IMG/VR virus record: IMGVR_UViG_3300020215_000090
Location: 1-41,378 of that record
Direction: 5' to 3' (one strand)
Length of the DNA stretch: 41,378 nt
Source: a virus
Made by a program: the position numbers and the translations under genes. The first letter of the stretch is position 1; each line of letters opens with the position of its first letter. The notes under the pieces were generated by a model. That model was not told where the DNA came from and did no database searches. It saw only the letters and a list, made by a program, of their open reading frames with translations. Positions 4,213 through 41,378 of this stretch are shown in pieces.

Positions 4213-4983
4213 TCAGCAAGCGGGGGCGACACGCCGCTCGGGCTTGATGAGCCCGTGGCGAACGATGCGATCGGCCTCGGCAAGGATGTCTTCGCGGCGC
4301 GACCACATCAGGTGGCAGTCGGCGGCCCCGGGCACGCCGGCGATGCTCTCGGTCACGCCTGCCGTGATGCCGGCCCAGCCGTAGCGCGCCGCAGTTCCCT
4401 TCAGGACCTTGTCCGTCTTCGTCGTCGCGATGCACCAGTCGACGTCGAACAGGTAGGCCGCCATCAGCCGGGAGAGCGACGAGACGATCTGCGAGACGCG
4501 GGCGCCGCCGAGCTCCGGACGGTCGCCGCGGAGCGCAGGATCAACCCAGACGGCGCCGTTGAAGGCGACACGGCCCTGGATCCGGTCGGCGATCGGACAA
4601 GAGAAGATCGCGTACTCGGTGTGCTTCGCATCTTCGGGGTGGTCGTAGTAGATCCGCAGCGCCCGGCTCTCGCTCGCCAGGGTCGCGCCGCCGTGCCAGG
4701 TGTAGAGGCGCGACGCGGCGCGGGTGACGGACGGCAGATAGATGTCCTTCGACCCGTGCAAGCAGAAGAAATTGCGCCCCGTCAGGCGGGCGGCGGTGTA
4801 GCGCGGATTGAGCGGCGCGCAGTCGACGTAGAGCGAGTCCGGCCTGTGGCTGGCCATGAACTGGATGCCGACCTTCGCCGCCTCGTGCTCGAGCACGGTG
4901 ACGGCGTCGACGATCGTCTCTCGCCAACGGCCCTCGCCAAGCAGATAGCTGCAAGCGGATGTGAGCGAGGGCCGTGCGTTCAT
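4213..4983 (-). CDS. GNAT-like protein paired with HTH-PAS regulator, unknown
   Basis: The product has 256 residues. The middle and C-terminal part has the pattern of an acyltransferase of the GNAT superfamily. There is a beta strand before GAVWVDPALRG, then a helix VSQIVSSLSRLMAAYLF, a strand DVDWCIATT, and a YGW near 210. The N-terminal 60 residues (LEHEAAKVGIQFMASHRPDS) are unassigned. It is translationally coupled (ATGA at 4980-4983) to the HTH-PAS-like regulator upstream. The reaction is not known. The GNAT reading rests on pattern recognition only; it could be a DNA-associated protein of another fold. Confidence 0.4.
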   Translation of the reverse strand: MNARPSLTSACSYLLGEGRWRETIVDAVTVLEHEAAKVGIQFMASHRPDSLYVDCAPLNPRYTAARLTGRNFFCLHGSKDIYLPSVTRAASRLYTWHGGATLASESRALRIYYDHPEDAKHTEYAIFSCPIADRIQGRVAFNGAVWVDPALRGDRPELGGARVSQIVSSLSRLMAAYLFDVDWCIATTKTDKVLKGTAARYGWAGITAGVTESIAGVPGAADCHLMWSRREDILAEADRIVRHGLIKPERRVAPAC

Positions 4984-5843
4984 GCGGTACCGGCTATGGG
5001 TTCCGAGGCGCAGACCGCGAACGGCGTGCGACCCTCAAGGTAGGGAAGGACGAGGCGGCGATAGCGCAGGTGCAGCGACACGCCGGGCTCGACCGCTACC
5101 GTGGCGTCGACGTCGTCGACGGCGGGCCGGCCCGAGTCCATGACGTCGCGCATGTTCCGCGCGCAGCCCTCGGCGTAGTCGCGGTCGAAGGTCTCTGTCG
5201 TCGGCTTGCCGATCAGCCGCTCGCGATCGACGGCGTGAAGACGGAATGCGGGCGAGATGTGCCCGAACAGCAGGTCGTCACCGCGGCGCGTGACGAGGGA
5301 CGCACGCAGGTGCGGCGTCTGCCGCGCCATGTTGACCAGGCTCGACCGCTCGGCCTTGCCCGAGCTCTCGGCCCATCGGCGCAGATGGTCGGCTAGGTGC
5401 GAGCGCTTGGATGCGACGACGTCGAGCGACCGTCGGACGACGACTGAACCCAGCCGTGCCGGCGCGCGATCCGATCCGCTTTCAACAGGGCTCGCCGGGC
5501 TTTGGCCCGCAGCCGATACCACCGCGCGAGCGGCGTGAACGGCCGGAACAGCCACTTCAACATCCAGAGCCCTCCTCATCGCCTCGACTTCGGCAAGCTC
5601 GGCCGCCGTCGGGGCCTCCTCGCCGAACACATACGTCAGGAACTCGCCACCGAAATGGCGGGCCAGCATTGCAACGTGCGCGGTCGTCGGCGCCGCGCCT
5701 TCGGTGTAGAGCCGAGCCGCGCTGCCGACCGATTGGCCGATGATGCGGGCCAGGTGCTTGACCGCCGAATTCTGCGGCAGATGTTCCCGCAGATAGGCGC
5801 GGCTGCGTTCACCAACAATCTTGGTGATCTGATCGCGTGTCAT
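4980..5843 (-). CDS. Regulator: N-terminal HTH plus C-terminal PAS-like domain
   Basis: The product has 287 residues. The N-terminal 75 (SAVKHLARIIGQSVGSAARL with a following helix AHVAMLARHFGGEF) look like a helix-turn-helix of the XRE type. After an Ala/Pro-rich linker, residues about 165-285 resemble the PAS_5-like domain of alphaproteobacterial proteins (LFGHISPAFR, then LIGKPTTETF, then LHLRYRRLVLPYL). PAS domains sense small ligands or redox state. The gene therefore looks like a sensor-regulator in the lytic early operon. It has no S24 peptidase or CII features. A GGAG site lies 9 nt before the ATG, and ATGA overlap exists on both sides. Confidence 0.55.
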   Translation of the reverse strand: MTRDQITKIVGERSRAYLREHLPQNSAVKHLARIIGQSVGSAARLYTEGAAPTTAHVAMLARHFGGEFLTYVFGEEAPTAAELAEVEAMRRALDVEVAVPAVHAARAVVSAAGQSPASPVESGSDRAPARLGSVVVRRSLDVVASKRSHLADHLRRWAESSGKAERSSLVNMARQTPHLRASLVTRRGDDLLFGHISPAFRLHAVDRERLIGKPTTETFDRDYAEGCARNMRDVMDSGRPAVDDVDATVAVEPGVSLHLRYRRLVLPYLEGRTPFAVCASEPIAGTA

Positions 5844-6342: not shown

Positions 6343-6399
6343 CTACCGCCCCCAGCCCACGCCGGCGACGAGCACGTATGCGAGGGTCAGCCACTCCAT
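6343..6399 (-). CDS. Possible 18-aa hydrophobic peptide
   Basis: The peptide MEWLTLAYVLVAGVGWGR is encoded between the Cro-like gene, whose TGA shares one base with this ATG, and the next start (TAGATG). It could be a micro membrane protein or simply keep ribosomes moving through the junction. Evidence is limited to the stop-start coupling on both sides. Confidence 0.3.
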   Translation of the reverse strand: MEWLTLAYVLVAGVGWGR

Positions 6400-6593
6400 C
6401 ACGCGGCGTCCCTCTGGCCGAGCAGCGCCTCGACCGCCTGCCACTTCTTCAGCGGCGGGCTCGTGACGCCGGCCTTCCACCGCTGCCAGGTGGCGCGATG
6501 AACGTCGGCGGCCTTGCACAGGTCGTCGACCTTCAGGCCCGCCTGCTTGGCGCGCTCCTCTGCCGCGACCACCGGATTGGAAGCTTTGACCAT
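6399..6593 (-). CDS. Cro-like HTH repressor, first gene of the leftward early operon
   Basis: The product is 64 residues from ATG 6593. Residues 16-45 (KQAGLKVDDLCKAADVHRAT then WQRWKAGV) form an XRE-type helix-turn-helix. Size and position match Cro of lambdoid phages: first gene of the lytic operon, divergent from the repressor candidate at 6679. The -10 element of the promoter at 6600-6628 predicts a transcript starting at the ATG itself, and no Shine-Dalgarno sequence is visible, so the mRNA may be leaderless. A GTG at 6611 is possible but lies in the operator and upstream of the predicted transcript start. Confidence 0.7.
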   Translation of the reverse strand: MVKASNPVVAAEERAKQAGLKVDDLCKAADVHRATWQRWKAGVTSPPLKKWQAVEALLGQRDAA

Positions 6594-6599
6594 CGGCGC

Positions 6600-6628
6600 A
6601 TTAATGCGCACTTATGCGCAGTCGTCAA
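6600..6628 (-). promoter_or_regulatory. Leftward early (PR-like) promoter
   Basis: On the minus strand, TTGACG (6628-6623), a 17-bp spacer and ATTAAT (6605-6600) form a good sigma-70-type promoter. The 16-bp operator TGCGCACTTATGCGCA (6605-6620, plus-strand reading) fills the spacer, so a bound repressor would block polymerase. The predicted start is near 6593, at the Cro-like ATG. Confidence 0.65.
6605..6620. promoter_or_regulatory. Operator O1, TGCGCA-N4-TGCGCA
   Basis: The sequence TGCGCACTTATGCGCA has two TGCGCA half-sites with centres 10 bp apart. Its exact reverse complement is at 8500-8515. Overlapping and nearby variants are present: GGCGCATTAATGCGCA at 6595-6610, and TGCGCAATTTTGCAGA at 6655-6670 next to the repressor start. 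This is the expected multi-operator pattern of a phage switch. Confidence 0.7.
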
Positions 6629-6654
6629 GCGCAGAAATGCATAGGGACGCAGAA

Positions 6655-6670
6655 TGCGCAATTTTGCAGA
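6655..6670. promoter_or_regulatory. Operator-like site O3 upstream of the repressor gene
   Basis: TGCGCAATTTTGCAGA keeps one perfect half-site and a 5/6 second half with the same 4-bp spacer as O1. It lies 9 bp before the ATG of the 6679 HTH gene, where binding would repress that gene (autoregulation). Confidence 0.4.
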
Positions 6671-6678
6671 GTCCGGGC

Positions 6679-7077
6679 ATGCCGAAAAGCGATGCGGAAG
6701 CCCGAAAGCGCGCCCTCAAGGAAATTCAGGACGCGATGCAGGTGACTGGTCTCAAGTCATCGCCGCTCGCGTTGGCCGCCGGCCTGCAGCCCTCCACGCT
6801 CAACCGGTTTCTCAAGGACCCCGAGCACTGCACGGTGCCGTCTACGACGACGCTCGCGAAGATCGCCGCCGTAGTCCGCCGACACGCCAAGTCGGCCGAG
6901 CCGGACGAAGCGGAATATCGCCGCATGGCAAAGGCACAGGAACTCGCCGAGGCCATGGGCATCCGCCTGCCCAAGCAGAAGGTCATCAAGTTCGCCGACC
7001 TCCTGCTGCAGCTCGGCAGCCGCCCGGAAGACACCGAGACCCTTCTCGACGAGATGACGCGCATCCTGCGGGATTAG
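6679..7077 (+). CDS. Lysogeny repressor candidate (HTH, no S24 domain)
   Basis: The product has 132 residues from ATG 6679. Residues about 17-55 (LKSSPLALAAGLQPSTLNRF followed by a helix TTTLAKIAAVV) are a XRE-type helix-turn-helix. The C-terminal part is helical (VIKFADLLLQLGSRPEDTET) and probably dimerises. The S24 autoprotease domain of lambda CI is absent, so induction would not use RecA-stimulated self-cleavage. The gene diverges from the Cro-like gene across the operators and lies between the two matched promoters, as cI does. An in-frame upstream extension would run through the operator and is rejected. Confidence 0.65.
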   Translation: MPKSDAEARKRALKEIQDAMQVTGLKSSPLALAAGLQPSTLNRFLKDPEHCTVPSTTTLAKIAAVVRRHAKSAEPDEAEYRRMAKAQELAEAMGIRLPKQKVIKFADLLLQLGSRPEDTETLLDEMTRILRD

Positions 7078-7137
7078 TTCGGCCGCGGGCGTGCCGTCTT
7101 TTTGCGCGCCTACCCCTACAACCTACCGGAGGACACC

Positions 7138-8052
7138 ATGCGTAGCTTGCTGCGTTTGATGGCGCTTGCCGCCGCTTTAACCATCCTGCCGTTGCTTCCA
7201 GCCAAGGCCCAGAACGTCGACGCGGGACTTTGGTGGTCGCCCGCAAATCCGGGCTGGGGCCTGGCGATCGACGAGCAGAACGGCGCCCTGGTCGTCATCG
7301 CCTACACCTACGACAGCTCGGGGACCGGCATCTGGTACTTCACCAACGGCTTCATGTCCTCGCGGACCACCTATTCCGGCCCGGCACAGACCTTCCGCGG
7401 CGGCCAGTGCGCCGGCTGCACCTATACCGCCCCCTCGGTCGCGGGCGAGCTCGGCACCGTGACCTTCACCTTCACCCCTGCCCTCACGGGCGCACCGGCG
7501 ACCACCGGCACCGTCTCGCTCAACGGCGGCACCTATGCGATCGAGCGCTTCAACTTCAATCTCGGCGACTTTCCCCACCGGATGCTGGGCCAATGGGCGT
7601 TCGTCTCTCGCGTGAACGGCGTCGCCGCCGCGGCGATCTTCACCTTCACGCGAGTTGGAACGGCCACGACCGGCGGCACCGGCCGGTTCCTCACCGCCGA
7701 CGGCCTGACCATCGGCCAGTGCTACAGCTCGGGATCCATTGCCGGGCTCTGTGAGATCGGGAACTTCAGCTCGAGCGGCGCCCTGCAGCTCTACATGCTG
7801 TTCGACCCCCGCGTGACCAACTCGCTCGTCGGGCTCTACCTGTCGAATGGCCAGTATTGGCCCACGCTCGGGTTCCGAACGGCCGCTCGCAGAGACGTGA
7901 CCAGCGTCGACGTGCTGCCTGACATGGTTTCCGCCATCCCGGAAAAGGCCGAGCAGTTCGGGAACATTCCGAACGAGATCAAGGACCCGCGTTTTCTGGT
8001 CACGCAGACGCCGGGCTGGGCCGATGATCGGGCGAAGCTTTTGAAAGAATAA
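7138..8052 (+). CDS. Exported beta-rich protein in the immunity region (lysogenic conversion candidate)
   Basis: The product has 304 residues from ATG 7138, with GGAGG 5 nt upstream. It has a clear Sec signal peptide (MRSLLRLMALAAALTILPL, likely cleavage after AKAQ). The mature protein starts with the GLWWSPANPGWGLAID motif seen in a family of bacterial exported proteins. It is rich in Gly, Thr and aromatic residues and probably all-beta, with a Cys pair (GGQCAGCTY). It follows the repressor candidate by 60 bp on the same strand inside the interval bounded by the two operator-promoters, so it is probably expressed in lysogens. The precise role, perhaps an envelope change or superinfection exclusion, is inference. 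Confidence 0.65.
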   Translation: MRSLLRLMALAAALTILPLLPAKAQNVDAGLWWSPANPGWGLAIDEQNGALVVIAYTYDSSGTGIWYFTNGFMSSRTTYSGPAQTFRGGQCAGCTYTAPSVAGELGTVTFTFTPALTGAPATTGTVSLNGGTYAIERFNFNLGDFPHRMLGQWAFVSRVNGVAAAAIFTFTRVGTATTGGTGRFLTADGLTIGQCYSSGSIAGLCEIGNFSSSGALQLYMLFDPRVTNSLVGLYLSNGQYWPTLGFRTAARRDVTSVDVLPDMVSAIPEKAEQFGNIPNEIKDPRFLVTQTPGWADDRAKLLKE

Positions 8053-8248
8053 TTCTGATCACGGTTTAGTCACGATGATCACAGTTTTCGTTGAATCTTA
8101 ATAAAACGCCCGCGATCCTGGGGACCTCGCCAAGGGGCGAGGACCGGGCCTGACCCGCCCGGCCCAGGACGCGCCGCTCGCGCATCCTCCGTGTAACACG
8201 GTACCGCTTGCCCCTGCGGGCAGCGCACCATGGGGGAGGCGTCGGGAA
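8053..8248. other. Non-coding gap rich in inverted repeats
   Basis: Phased TGATCAC-type repeats lie at 8056-8082. Four consecutive inverted repeats follow: CCTCGCC/GGCGAGG (8125-8142), CCGGGC/GCCCGG (8144-8162), CCGTGT/ACACGG (8189-8201) and TGCCC/GGGCA (8209-8222). No convincing ORF with a ribosome site is present. It may hold the terminator of the repressor/exported-protein transcript, protein-binding sites, or a structured RNA. Confidence 0.5.
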
Positions 8249-8434
8249 ATGCGCGGAAGCAAACTGTCGCATGCACGGCCAAAGGGTCTTGCCAAACGAG
8301 CTGTTCTGGCTGCTCGGCCAGAGCGGCTGAGGGCGATTGCCACGGATCTCGCCGTGCTCGCGGTCGCCATGGCACAAGCCCCGAAAAAGGACGAACGGAA
8401 GATCGTCGAACGCTGGCTAGCCGCGCGCCGCTAG
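8249..8434 (+). CDS. Small basic protein, unknown
   Basis: The predicted product has 61 residues. It has a very basic N-terminus (MRGSKLSHARPKGLAKRAVL) and a helical, Ala/Arg-rich remainder ending in VERWLAARR. GGGGGAGG lies about 10 nt upstream of the ATG, at the edge of useful spacing. It lies between the hairpin cluster and the rightward early promoter, inside the immunity interval. A minus-strand alternative ORF overlaps it and looks like a GC shadow. Confidence 0.45.
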   Translation: MRGSKLSHARPKGLAKRAVLAARPERLRAIATDLAVLAVAMAQAPKKDERKIVERWLAARR

Positions 8435-8491
8435 CATCTTCGTTGCCGCCCTAATTACAGGGCGCAATCTCGGCGTTGTGCATTTTTGCGC

Positions 8492-8520
8492 TTGCATTGT
8501 GCGCATAAGTGCGCAAATAT
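8492..8520 (+). promoter_or_regulatory. Rightward early (PL-like) promoter with operator O2
   Basis: TTGCAT (8492-8497), a 17-bp spacer and AAATAT (8515-8520) align base for base with the leftward promoter. The operator TGCGCATAAGTGCGCA (8500-8515) is the exact reverse complement of O1. Homology extends upstream to 8479, with 31 of 37 positions identical to 6641-6605 on the minus strand. It drives the plus-strand accessory operon beginning at 8545. Confidence 0.65.
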
Positions 8521-8544
8521 CTCCTCACCACAGAGGAGACGCCG

Positions 8545-8847
8545 ATGCCCGCCACCACCGACCAGCCGATCCCGCGCACCGAGGCCTCCGCGCTCGAAGC
8601 CGCCGTCGCTCTTGAGAAGGAGATCGACGCGCTCGCCGACAAGGCCGCCAGCCTCTCGCTGAACCTGAACCTGCCGCAGGACGTGAAGGAGGCGCTTGCC
8701 GAGGCGTGCCGGCACCTGCGCGACACGATCGCTGACAGCTGCATCGAGTGGTCGGTCCGTCGCTACGAGGAAGACGAGCCCCGGCGCGAGCGCGCTGCGG
8801 CCGCTTATGCCCGCGAGGTCGCGGCCGACGTGCAGCGCGGGTTCTGA
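8545..8847 (+). CDS. First gene of the rightward early operon, unknown
   Basis: The product has 100 residues. It is acidic and helical (LEKEIDALADKAAS, then LPQDVKEALAEACRHLRDTI), ending in a charged segment. GAGGAGA lies 8 nt before ATG 8545. The site is part of an inverted repeat CTCCTC/GAGGAG (8521-8538), although the predicted transcript start (about 8527) would cut off the 5' arm. As the first gene behind an operator-controlled promoter it occupies the place of lambda N, but I see no arginine-rich antiterminator motif. Confidence 0.6.
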   Translation: MPATTDQPIPRTEASALEAAVALEKEIDALADKAASLSLNLNLPQDVKEALAEACRHLRDTIADSCIEWSVRRYEEDEPRRERAAAAYAREVAADVQRGF

Positions 8848-11049: not shown

Positions 11050-11203
11050 GCGCGACATCTTCGATCTCGGCAACCTCGTCAACTGGCTCGCCACCCGCGC
11101 GCCTGACGAGCTTGCTCGAGACCTTCCCGATCTGGAGAAGGCCCGCAACACGCTGAACCAGGTCATCGGCCGCGCCCGCGAAGGAGCCCGTCATGCTGCC
11201 TGA
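11036..11203 (+). CDS. Small unknown protein, 55 aa
   Basis: The ORF runs from ATG 11036 to TGA 11203 and overlaps neighbours on both sides by 14 and 11 nt. It is helical and acidic-basic mixed (DIFDLGNLVNWLATRAPDEL, then LEKARNTLNQVIGRARE). It immediately precedes the recombination nuclease, whose AAGGAG ribosome site lies within it. Confidence 0.5.
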   Translation: MSTTERDIFDLGNLVNWLATRAPDELARDLPDLEKARNTLNQVIGRAREGARHAA

Positions 11204-11918
11204 TTACTACCGACACTCGCCCTCGTCGGGGAACATGTTCCGCGAGGCTCCTGACGCCTGGCTCTGGCGCTACGGCTTCGGCAATCGCGACGAGAAAAAC
11301 GCCCGCATGGCGATGGGTTCGGCGGCCGAACACGGCGTCAACGTCGCGCTGACCTCCGGGCTGTCCGACGACGACGCGGCCGATGCGGCACTCGCCGAGT
11401 TCGACAAGCTCATGCAGGGCGAAATCTCGGCAGAGCGTGACGCCGCGCCGCTGATCTGCAAGCAGATGCTTGCCCTGCTCCGCCCGTTCGGCAAGCCGCT
11501 CACCATCCAGAACGTGGTGAACCTGCCCACGGGCCAGCGGTACGGCTTCGGCTATCCGGTGAAGGGCGTCACCGACCTCGGCTACGACGAGTTCTATCTG
11601 GACCTCAAGGCGACGATGGCCTGCCCGTCCGCGCCGAAGTTCAGCCACGTCTGCCAGCTCGGGGCTTATGCCGAGTTGACCGGCAAGCCGCAGAAGATCC
11701 TCTACGCCACGCCCAAGCGGGCGATGCTCTACGACATCACGCCCGAGGATGCGGCCTATGGCTGGTCCGTGATGCAGGGCGCATGGCGGCGGATCGAGGC
11801 CCTGGCGCGGACCTATCCGACCGCCGAAGCCGCCGCGGCGATCATCCCGTTCAACCCCGACAGCTTCTACTGGTCCGACGCCGACAAGGCGAAGGCCGCC
11901 ACCATCTGGAGTATCTGA
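11193..11918 (+). CDS. PD-(D/E)XK nuclease (RecB/Cas4-like), recombination exonuclease candidate
   Basis: The product has 241 residues. The fold's motifs are in order: an N-terminal helix with GSAAEHG (H47), D128 in KGVTDLG, D137 and K139 in YLDLKAT, and Q155 followed by Y159 in the HVCQLGAYAEL helix. This matches PDDEXK_1-type phage exonucleases that process dsDNA ends for homologous recombination. The next gene is an SSB-like protein, which supports a recombination module. The final IIPFNPDSFYWSDADKA region is typical of this phage subgroup. Confidence 0.8.
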   Translation: MLPDYYRHSPSSGNMFREAPDAWLWRYGFGNRDEKNARMAMGSAAEHGVNVALTSGLSDDDAADAALAEFDKLMQGEISAERDAAPLICKQMLALLRPFGKPLTIQNVVNLPTGQRYGFGYPVKGVTDLGYDEFYLDLKATMACPSAPKFSHVCQLGAYAELTGKPQKILYATPKRAMLYDITPEDAAYGWSVMQGAWRRIEALARTYPTAEAAAAIIPFNPDSFYWSDADKAKAATIWSI

Positions 11919-11920
11919 CC

Positions 11921-12553
11921 ATGTACATGCCGCCCAACAACGGAGGCGACTTCACGCCCCCGCCGGCCGGGACCCACCTTTCCATTTGCTATCGCGTGAT
12001 CGACCTGGGCACGCAGCAGGTCGAGTGGCAAGGCGAGACCAAGCAACAGCACAAGCTGATGCTCTCCTGGGAGATCCCGGAGGAGAAGATGGAGGACGGT
12101 CGCCCGTTCTCAATCTCTCAGCGCTACACTTTCAGCAGCCATGAGAAGGCGCGCTTCCGCCAGGATCTGGAAGCGTGGCGCGGCGCGAAGTTCACCGAGG
12201 CCGACCTCGCTGGGCCGCCGAACGGCTTTCACGTCCGCAAGCTGCTCGGCGTGCCTTGCCAGCTCACCATCGTTCACAACGTCAAGCAGGGGAAGACCTA
12301 CGCCAACATCTCGGCGGTGACGAAGCTCATGAAGGGGCTGACCGTCCCGCCGCTCGTCAACGAGAAGGTCTACTTCTCGCTGGACCCGGCGGAGTTCTCC
12401 GAGGACGTCTGGAACAAGCTGTCCAGCGGCTTGCGTGCGGTGATCGAGAAGTCACCCGAATACGCCGAGCTCCGCCGGCCGCGCTCTGCAGAGCATGTGG
12501 GCGAGGCCCCGCCGCCGCGTCACCACGACCTCGACGACGAAATCCCGTTCTGA
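11921..12553 (+). CDS. Single-stranded-DNA-binding protein, phage type
   Basis: The product has 210 residues from ATG 11921, two bases after the nuclease stop. Its acidic tail ends DDEIPF, the hallmark by which SSB proteins recruit partners. The N-terminal 170 residues are beta-rich (HLSICYRVIDLGTQQVEW, then CQLTIVHNVKQGKTYANISA), consistent with an OB fold of the phage DUF669/gp2.5-like group. It would protect ssDNA made by the neighbouring exonuclease and during replication. Confidence 0.75.
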   Translation: MYMPPNNGGDFTPPPAGTHLSICYRVIDLGTQQVEWQGETKQQHKLMLSWEIPEEKMEDGRPFSISQRYTFSSHEKARFRQDLEAWRGAKFTEADLAGPPNGFHVRKLLGVPCQLTIVHNVKQGKTYANISAVTKLMKGLTVPPLVNEKVYFSLDPAEFSEDVWNKLSSGLRAVIEKSPEYAELRRPRSAEHVGEAPPPRHHDLDDEIPF

Positions 12554-17472: not shown

Positions 17473-17856
17473 GTGACCGCGAGGCGCGACATTGTTCCGG
17501 AGATGACACTCGAGGAAGTGGCGGAGCGGCTGCGAACCTCGACGCGGACGCTTCGGCGCCGGCTGGCCGAGCACCCGGAAGTCCGGCCCTTGCAGAACGG
17601 CCGCTCGATCCTGTTCGATGAACCCGCCTACATCCGGCTCAAGGAAGCCCTGAGGTCCCCATGCCCTACAAGCTCATCCCCCCAGGAAAGCGAAAGGGGA
17701 ACCGCTTCTACCTCATCCGGGGCACGGTCGCCGGCCAGCGTTTTGAGATCGCTACGGGCACGTCGGACGAAAAGGAGGCTGAGCGAGCTGCGCCAGGACT
17801 CGTTGCCGCCGTCCTCGACGTCGGAGCCCAACGTAATATCGATCCGCAGACCCTGA
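17473..17856 (+). CDS. Excisionase-like HTH protein overlapping the integrase
   Basis: The product has 127 residues from GTG 17473, preceded by AGGAGG. Residues 10-60 (MTLEEVAERLRTSTRTLRRR, then RPLQNGRSILFDEPAYIRL) are a winged helix of the HTH_17/excisionase type, which bends attachment DNA to favour excision. After EALR the frame continues for about 60 Ser/Arg-rich residues inside the integrase gene (196-nt overlap). That tail may be real or an ORF extension with little selection. Position directly before int supports Xis. Confidence 0.65.
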   Translation: MTARRDIVPEMTLEEVAERLRTSTRTLRRRLAEHPEVRPLQNGRSILFDEPAYIRLKEALRSPCPTSSSPQESERGTASTSSGARSPASVLRSLRARRTKRRLSELRQDSLPPSSTSEPNVISIRRP

Positions 17857-18674
17857 CGTTCACGCAGGCGGCGACGCTCTACAAGGAGTTCCGCCAACCC
17901 TCGAAGAACGACCAGCGGTACATCGACCGGATCGTTGCGCAGATCGATCACAAGGGCACCCGCCTCGCCGCGACTATCCGGCAGGCCGACCTCGTGACCG
18001 CCGCCAACACACTGCACCCGGGCGAGAGCAACCAGACGAGGAACCGCCAGGTCATCGCCCCCGCCGCCGCGATCCTCCACTACGCCGCCAAGAACGAATG
18101 GATCGGCTACCGCAAGTTCGAGCGCTTCCGGGAGCCGAAGCCCAAGACGCGATCGGTCGGCGACGAGGTTCCGCGAGTGCTGCTCGGGAACACCAAGGGC
18201 AAGCAGCGGCTGCTCATCCTGTGGCTCTTCCGCCAGGGTTCGCGGATCACGGATACCGTCAGGGTCGAGTGGCCACAAATCAACCTTGAGGCGGCGACGG
18301 TCGAAATGCTCGTCTCGAAGAAGAGGGGCGGCGCGGAGTGGCGGACCTTTTCCCTTGACGACGACCTGGTCGCCGCGCTCGCCAACGAGGACAAGGCGCA
18401 ACCGCTCTGGCCATGGGTCACGCGCGCCGGGGTCTACAAATGGCTCATCCCGCTCGTGCGCCGGCTGGGCATCACCTTCACGCCCCACATGGCCCGCCAT
18501 ACCCGGGGGCGGTATCTGAACGCCACGGGCGCGGGCCTGAGGACCATCATGCAGGCGCTCGGCCAGGACGATCCGAAATCGGCGATCCGCTATACGGACG
18601 CGGATATCGAGGTCGTGCGGGCGGCGCAGCGGAAGGCCATCGGCGCGGGGGAGAGGCGGGGGAAAAAGAAATGA
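17661..18674 (+). CDS. int: Tyrosine recombinase integrase
   Basis: The product has 337 residues. It would catalyse site-specific recombination between attP and the host tRNA-Thr gene. The catalytic residues are visible: R195 in GSRITDT, a Lys at 220-221 in the beta hairpin, HMAR (H276, R279), and nucleophile Y311 in IRYTDAD. The N-terminal 60 residues (MPYKLIPPGKRKGNRFYLIR) are the arm-binding type common in alphaproteobacterial phages. A SAM-like core-binding domain spans about 65-150. The attP core begins 36 bp after its stop, the classic arrangement. Confidence 0.92.
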   Translation: MPYKLIPPGKRKGNRFYLIRGTVAGQRFEIATGTSDEKEAERAAPGLVAAVLDVGAQRNIDPQTLTFTQAATLYKEFRQPSKNDQRYIDRIVAQIDHKGTRLAATIRQADLVTAANTLHPGESNQTRNRQVIAPAAAILHYAAKNEWIGYRKFERFREPKPKTRSVGDEVPRVLLGNTKGKQRLLILWLFRQGSRITDTVRVEWPQINLEAATVEMLVSKKRGGAEWRTFSLDDDLVAALANEDKAQPLWPWVTRAGVYKWLIPLVRRLGITFTPHMARHTRGRYLNATGAGLRTIMQALGQDDPKSAIRYTDADIEVVRAAQRKAIGAGERRGKKK

Positions 18675-40224: not shown

Positions 40225-41378
40225 ACGATTGCCCTCGTGTCGCGGTAGCTGACGGGCTTCGACCAGGACTGGTTCGGCTCTTCGTAGTCGATCGCCATCA
40301 GCCCGAAGGCGTCCGCGGCGTGGCTCGACCAGTCATGCTCCGGGCCGAGCCCGATGTTGCGCGCCTCGTCCTTGCGCTCGTGGTAGTAGCCAAGCGCCTC
40401 GCGGCCGGGTGCCGTCGGCCCCTCGTTGAACCACATGCGCGAGAACCACCGGCGGGCGGCCTCGATGCGCTGCGTCGCGGCTCCCTGCCCCTGGTTCGGC
40501 ACGGTGCGGACGCTCAGCCCCGCGTCCTTCAGGTGGTCCTCGTAGCGCTTGCCGGTGATGTTGTTGGTGTTCACGCCGTCATGCGGCAGCACGCACTCCG
40601 CAGCCGCCCAGCCGCGCGTACGCAGCTCGTTGACGTAGTAGGCGAGCACCTGCCCCTGGCCCTCGATGTAGTCGAGGACGCGGATCTCCTTGCCGACGAA
40701 CTGGACGATCCAGATCGACATGGCGTCGGCGCGCGCACCGGCGCCGCCGATGTCCCAATAGGCGCGGATCGACAGCATGGGGTCGACGGCCACATGCCCG
40801 ATGCGCCCGTCTGCCTTCGCCCGAGATAGATGCTTGGCGTAGTAGGCCCCTTCGAGCGCCTGGGCATAGCCGCCCTCCCAGATGTGCTCGTAGCGGTCGG
40901 GATAGCGCTCCAGGTCCAGCTTGCGCTCGTCCTCGAGCACGGCCGGGAACCACGGGTTATCGCGCCAGTTGGCCTCGACGACGATCGAGCCGGGCGGCTT
41001 GTCCTGGCGCAGGAACTTGTCGATCGCGTCCGATTTCCGTCGCGGGTTCCAGCTGGCCCATATCTCCGAGCCCTCGGCGCGGATGGTCGGGCGAAGCAGA
41101 GTCAGGCTGCGCTCGGAGAGCGTCTGAGCCTCCTCGATCCAGGCGCGTTTGAACTTCTCCAGCGATTTGATGCTCTCGGCGTTGTGATCCTGCATGCCCT
41201 GGAAGACGATCAGGCCGCCGCCGGGCGCGATGATCTGCTCGCGCTGCACCTCGAACTGGCTGCCGACGCCCATCTCGGCGATCTTGTCCTCGATCAGCTT
41301 CTTGCTGGATTGCGCCAGGGTCTTCTGGACCTCGCGGATGCAGACCGAACGCGAGCCGGGGTCGGCGATGTGCTCCTC
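40221..41378 (-). CDS. terL: Terminase large subunit, C-terminal and central part
   Basis: This continues the gene begun at 260 on the minus strand, across the terminal repeat. Walker B and the coupling glutamate are in FKRAWIEEAQTLSERSL. SWNPRRKSDAIDKFL is the usual segment after it. The RNase-H-like nuclease has acidic residues in AYWDIGGAGARADAMSIWIV, LPHDG and HDWSSHAADAFGLMAID. It belongs to the Terminase_3/6-like group. The nuclease cuts concatemeric DNA at packaging start and end. The stop overlaps the next small gene by 4 nt. Confidence 0.93.
   Translation of the reverse strand, partial: EEHIADPGSRSVCIREVQKTLAQSSKKLIEDKIAEMGVGSQFEVQREQIIAPGGGLIVFQGMQDHNAESIKSLEKFKRAWIEEAQTLSERSLTLLRPTIRAEGSEIWASWNPRRKSDAIDKFLRQDKPPGSIVVEANWRDNPWFPAVLEDERKLDLERYPDRYEHIWEGGYAQALEGAYYAKHLSRAKADGRIGHVAVDPMLSIRAYWDIGGAGARADAMSIWIVQFVGKEIRVLDYIEGQGQVLAYYVNELRTRGWAAAECVLPHDGVNTNNITGKRYEDHLKDAGLSVRTVPNQGQGAATQRIEAARRWFSRMWFNEGPTAPGREALGYYHERKDEARNIGLGPEHDWSSHAADAFGLMAIDYEEPNQSWSKPVSYRDTRAIV
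41253..41378. repeat. Terminal direct repeat, right copy
   Basis: This is identical to 6-131. See the left copy; joining the two gives a circular unit of 41247 bp. Confidence 0.93.

Follow-up and report, generated by a model that had tools for sequence, protein, structure and literature searches.

A TGCGCA operator predicted to serve both early promoters in a lambda-type immunity region of a temperate phage

The lambda-type layout, in which one repressor site is copied at two outward-facing early promoters around the repressor gene, is well known. The window, that is, the whole stretch of 41,378 nucleotides analysed here (IMG/VR virus record IMGVR_UViG_3300020215_000090), carries two promoter-like modules of similar sequence around a candidate helix-turn-helix (HTH) repressor gene. 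The question raised by this locus is whether the two modules form a switch of this type and, if so, which proteins would act on it. The window is a circularly mapped genome, and its 126-bp exact terminal repeat (6-131 = 41253-41378) shows that the genome is complete. The terminase gene is split across the window ends.

The two modules, at 6641-6605 on the minus strand and 8479-8515 on the plus strand, aligned without gaps and with 31 of 37 bases identical, exactly as the original prediction had described them. The 16-mer common to both, TGCGCATAAGTGCGCA, occurs twice in the window, at 6605-6620 (minus strand) and 8500-8515 (plus strand), and nowhere else. These exact copies, termed O1R and O1L, fill the spacers between the -35 and -10 hexamers of the predicted promoters PR and PL, respectively. 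While one operator per module had been proposed, only the presence of an O1 copy in each module was upheld; the single-site count was not, PL having two sites and PR three or more. In each module, the second operator is weaker than O1. O2R (TATGCATTTCTGCGCT, 6628-6643, minus strand, 3 mismatches in 12 positions) ends at the -35 hexamer of PR, and its position is kept in related phages. O2L (TGTGCATTTTTGCGCT, 8477-8492, plus strand, 2 mismatches) ends likewise at the -35 hexamer of PL. The spacing from O1 to O2 is 23 bp at both promoters. The third site at PR, the O3R candidate (TGCGCAATTTTGCAGA, 6655-6670, plus strand, 2 mismatches), is 27 bp away and adjoins the start of cI, and an extra site without strand assignment (GGCGCATTAATGCGCA, 6595-6610, 1 mismatch) overlaps O1R in a 10-bp register. 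Both early promoters are thus overlapped by the same operator sequence, as in phages of the lambda type.

The concentration of these sites was then compared with chance. The two intergenic stretches, which together span 173 bp, hold five of the sixteen TGCGCA hexamers present in the window; the expected number is 0.07, and the module pair is therefore far beyond chance. All of the five 16-mers in the window that are within two mismatches of TGCGCA-N4-TGCGCA also lie in these stretches. In the 8 kb tested, no inverted repeat was better than this pair, which a repeat finder called as 37 nt at 84%; in lambda, the same finder called PL and PR as a pair of 33 nt at 79%.

PR (6600-6628, minus strand) consists of a -35 hexamer TTGACG (6628-6623), a 17-bp spacer and a -10 hexamer ATTAAT (6605-6600), with a predicted +1 at 6593. 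This geometry is common to the contigs L012, L111, L236 and L165. PL (8492-8520, plus strand) consists of TTGCAT (8492-8497), 17 bp and AAATAT (8515-8520); homologous modules in other phages show better -10 hexamers, such as TATGAT, TATTAT and TATATT. The hexamers of PR and PL are weak by the consensus of E. coli. In Sinorhizobium meliloti, poor conservation of the -10 regions of sigma-70 promoters is reported (PMC3616915). Since a fixed-rule sigma-70 scan called no promoter at PR or PL, both assignments rest on position and comparison. The first gene of the PL operon (8545-8847, plus strand) has the Shine-Dalgarno sequence AGAGGAG, over which a possible hairpin (8521-8538, CTCCTC-ACCACA-GAGGAG) is located. 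Because its left half precedes the predicted +1 of PL, the hairpin would form only in transcripts from further upstream.

The genes around the modules were compared with those of lambda (PL-OL / rexB-rexA-cI / OR-PR-cro). On the minus strand, the cro-like gene 6399 is followed by genes for a methyltransferase, a helicase-loader-like protein, the terminase, the portal and the major head protein, and by lysis genes to 20383. The plus strand carries cI 6679, a secreted-protein gene (7138-8052), PL, a phage replication initiator of the NGO0469 family (11921-12553; NCBIfam NF046043, E 2.7e-65) and a tyrosine integrase (17661-18674; PHROGs phrog_1, E 5.6e-23). The plus operon had been regarded as accessory. 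This view has to be abandoned, because the replication initiator and the integrase are encoded there, and the operon corresponds to the early-left (PL) operon of lambda. As in lambda, cI and cro are divergent, PL and PR flank cI and face outward, cI and PL read the same way, PL leads into recombination and integration genes, and PR leads into cro, replication and late genes. Shared operators lie in and beside both promoters in the two phages, at spacings of 20-24 bp in lambda and 23 bp in the window. Where lambda has rexAB, between cI and PL, the window carries a gene whose 304-aa product apparently has a signal peptide; this gene is a candidate for cargo or lysogenic conversion, and its product had no match in Pfam, PHROGs or NCBIfam. 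In related phages, the same interval is occupied by different genes. The window differs from lambda in its unrelated operator letters, and N, CII and CIII gave no confident family match among the window genes tested (a CII-like PHROG matched 6679 at E 0.04). Two further differences, in the repressor and in the start of cro, are described below.

Layout and gene order therefore bear out the predicted lambda-like arrangement of PL and PR with shared operators around cI. Judging from the sequence, it is highly probable that the region around cI serves as the immunity region and follows the lambda plan, and that the window is the genome of a temperate phage, whose structural genes are of the podovirus type. 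The host is most likely alphaproteobacterial. A separate observation concerns the gene at 4980-5843, in which a patch of about 100 bp (5719-5831), encoding the N-terminus of the product, showed 73-83% DNA identity to otherwise unrelated phages of Myxococcus, Paracoccus, Sinorhizobium, Pseudomonas and Synechococcus.

In order to find relatives of the operator independently of the proteins, IMG/VR was scanned with the DNA pattern TTG-N5-TGCGCA-N4-TGCGCA and no protein information, which gave 78 loci. When the window cI and cro were compared with these loci by tblastn, 14 matches were obtained in nine loci, and 13 of the 14 were located within 90 bp of an operator. Two of the nine loci, L167 and L216, look near-identical. 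The same search of 137 control loci (1.76 Mb), which were picked by their portal gene and do not sample temperate phages at random, gave no match. The motif scan of related phages that had been suggested as a check was thus positive, with nine loci encoding relatives of 6399, of 6679 or of both. Pairs of sites at 23 bp were found in six of the TGCGCA contigs, on both sides of cI in several of them (L236, L165, L227/L228), and the PL modules of these contigs are close to that of the window. L236, L165, L227/L228, L237, L211, L226 and L216 resemble the window in having its operator, mostly at the 23-bp spacing, a related cI HTH domain and cro, and sites on either side of cI. These comparisons support an association of the operator with both HTH families, the 6399 type and the 6679 type.

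When IMG/VR and GTDB genomes were scanned with protein seeds from 6679 and 6399, no relatives were recovered. This result is probably due to the strictness of the eight-residue seeds; the operator-seeded scan then recovered relatives. Scans with 4213-4983 and 11193-11918 gave no matches. The exact 16-mer in the IMG/VR loci L003-L010 occurred as single sites without a second module, and these were taken as chance. Clusters of TGCGCA-N4-TGCGCA at L207:3038-3122 and L168:5699-5783 have no detectable relative of the window cI or cro nearby; other regulators possibly use the same palindrome there.

It is worth considering that TGCGCA is itself palindromic and could be used by many dimeric proteins. 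A host regulator, instead of the phage proteins, might bind the sites and tie the early promoters to host physiology. We consider this very improbable, since the pattern gave only 2 hits in 385 alphaproteobacterial genomes, neither of them resembling a promoter pair or lying in an evident promoter, while in viral contigs the pattern adjoins relatives of the phage HTH proteins. As to which of these proteins acts, the 6679 or the 6399 product had been expected at both modules. The part of this claim that stands is the association of the operator with relatives of both proteins, in a comparison that covers co-occurrence only. Just one of the two might bind the shared operators while the other acts elsewhere, without true competition between CI and Cro; co-occurrence cannot tell the two proteins apart, and phage PY54 provides a case in which Cro, in contrast to CI, has one binding site only (PMC4488713). 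On the other hand, the recognition helices of both HTH families are conserved across the operator-sharing phages, and CI and Cro of lambda both bind all operators. Binding by one protein only thus appears unlikely, though clearly less so than control by a host regulator, and binding of both CI and Cro is preferred.

The CI-like repressor (6679-7077, plus strand, 132 aa) contained only an HTH domain, as judged from domain searches. Its N-terminal domain is of the Cro/C1 type (HTH_26, E 3.4e-4, just below the cut-off); the HTH matches of 6399 and 6679 are both below the curated Pfam cut-offs. The model is all-helical, with high confidence for HTH residues 11-70 and lower confidence for the C-terminal part, and a fold search with it gave no significant match. 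The C-terminal Peptidase_S24 domain of lambda CI and LexA-type repressors gave no match in 6679, in agreement with the original prediction. A degraded S24 remnant 3' of cI was also considered and was dropped, because an intact open reading frame lies only 60 bp beyond cI. Among phages with the same TGCGCA operator, Peptidase_S24 was found above the Pfam cut-off in the repressors of L237, L236, L165 and L211, which differ from the window also in their cargo genes, and was absent from the repressors of the window, L226 and L216. The opposite exchange was observed in Acetobacter phage phiAX1, whose S24 domain is almost identical to that of L236 (84.7% DNA identity) but follows an HTH domain that is different; upstream of its cro-position gene lies ATGCGGGCATATCCCCGCAT, a palindrome of another kind. 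Because of these two observations, the repressor looks modular, with an exchangeable DNA-binding part and S24 domain.

Since the window repressor lacks S24, its inactivation by RecA-stimulated self-cleavage is unlikely, and it would probably not be induced in this way. The likeliest routes of induction would be spontaneous switching by Cro or an antirepressor of a kind not recognised. There is a precedent in Salmonella phage SPC32H, whose repressor Rep is controlled by the antirepressor Ant (PMC9986798). Rep has a C-terminal oligomerisation domain, and the HTH domain of cI 6679 showed a weak profile match to Rep (PDB 5d4z, E 5.5e-4). In contrast to SPC32H, no antirepressor was recognised in the window.

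The Cro-like HTH protein (6399-6593, minus strand, 64 aa) also differs from its lambda counterpart, whose gene has a leader with a Shine-Dalgarno sequence. Its ATG is located 7 nt after the -10 hexamer of PR and has no Shine-Dalgarno sequence. The distance from the -35 TTG to the cro ATG is 35-36 nt in the window, ppBeUSDA76-2, ppBjS10J-1, an Aestuariivirga prophage, phiKX1, phiAX1, L236, L165 and L227, by -35 assignments made by eye and in phages that are not all independent; longer distances were found in L167, L226 and L211. A distance of 35-36 nt places the predicted +1 at, or one or two bases from, the A of the ATG. Of the 70 window genes, only 3 are preceded by a TTG at this distance. 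Taken together, the position of the ATG and its recurrence in most of these phages suggest that the cro mRNA of the window is probably leaderless. Experimental precedent exists in PY54, whose cI and cro mRNAs are leaderless, the latter starting at the AUG, although PY54 is a gammaproteobacterial linear-plasmid phage with only one Cro operator (PMC4488713). For Sinorhizobium meliloti, the existence of leaderless mRNAs is established (PMC3616915). A leaderless cro is thus a consistent prediction, the principle of which is already known.

The same plan was found with unrelated operators in three phages of alphaproteobacteria. The Bradyrhizobium phage ppBeUSDA76-2 (OP596614; L012), with a portal 44% and a head protein 47% identical to those of the window, has a cI-like gene (116 aa) that is flanked by modules in inverted orientation, at 79% over 48 nt. 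Its operator is GCTAC-N5-GTAGC, O1 lying within the spacer and O2 next to the -35. The module geometry is the same in ppBjS10J-1 (OP596615), with the operator CCTACC-N5-GGTAGG, and in the Aestuariivirga prophage, with a GTTACC-N5-GGTAAC-like palindrome. No S24 match was found in the three repressors. The two Bradyrhizobium phages, which are spontaneously released by their hosts (PMC10127595, where podophage particles were also seen), ppBeUSDA76-2 by Bradyrhizobium elkanii USDA 76, resemble the window in structural proteins, module geometry, short S24-less repressors and the distance of the cro ATG. They differ from it in their operators, in HTH sequences that are not detectably related, and in having no cargo gene between cI and PL. 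The inverted module was absent from most portal-selected loci, many of which may be virulent or may lack the region, and inverted repeats in L127, L131 and L140 were rejected, having no recognisable cI/cro pair between them. In ppBeUSDA76-2 (L012:19031-21087), the portal is in two pieces in different frames, the stop of the N-terminal part (about 184 aa) overlapping a possible start of the rest. Many other Bradyrhizobium prophage portals match only before residue ~170 or only after ~190. A portal in two pieces may therefore be usual among these prophages.

These structures bear on a further explanation of the module pair. The identity of 31/37 would also be expected if the second module were a recent duplication without function, or the resemblance might be accidental. 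The identity is, however, concentrated in the operators and the -35 hexamers, and modules are paired in the same way in related phages whose flanks differ and, with unrelated letters, in other phages. We regard this explanation as the least probable of those considered, with hardly any weight left to it.

In the preferred reading, in which CI and Cro act on shared operators at PR and PL, both proteins would recognise TGCGCA half-sites. Since O1 fills the spacer and O2 abuts the -35 hexamer at both promoters, bound repressor dimers would block RNA polymerase directly and shut PR and PL at once. Cooperativity between the sites spaced by 23 bp may contribute, and O3, beside the cI start, would probably tune the expression of cI. 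We hold this reading as a whole with high, though not full, confidence. As for alphaproteobacterial temperate phages in general, the chances seem even that they exchange two modules independently of each other, one being the DNA-binding domain and its operators and the other a C-terminal domain for induction, either S24 or a short helical one, and that cro is commonly leaderless with its start codon at the +1 of PR.

The TGCGCA operator and its repressor family appear to be previously undescribed; no paper describing the operator was found in the literature searched, which is not proof of absence. On the evidence of sequence, the operator and repressor of the window form a new class in a design that is otherwise familiar, the overall plan being that of the textbook. 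As far as comparison between genomes can show, the main interpretation is upheld, with binding, promoter activity and induction as predictions. It would provide a concrete pair of operator and repressor in temperate phages from a class of bacteria in which such switches have received little study, and the immunity type of unannotated viral contigs could be told from their DNA. The occurrence of S24-bearing and S24-less repressors on the same operators amounts to a natural experiment on the gain and loss of SOS induction.
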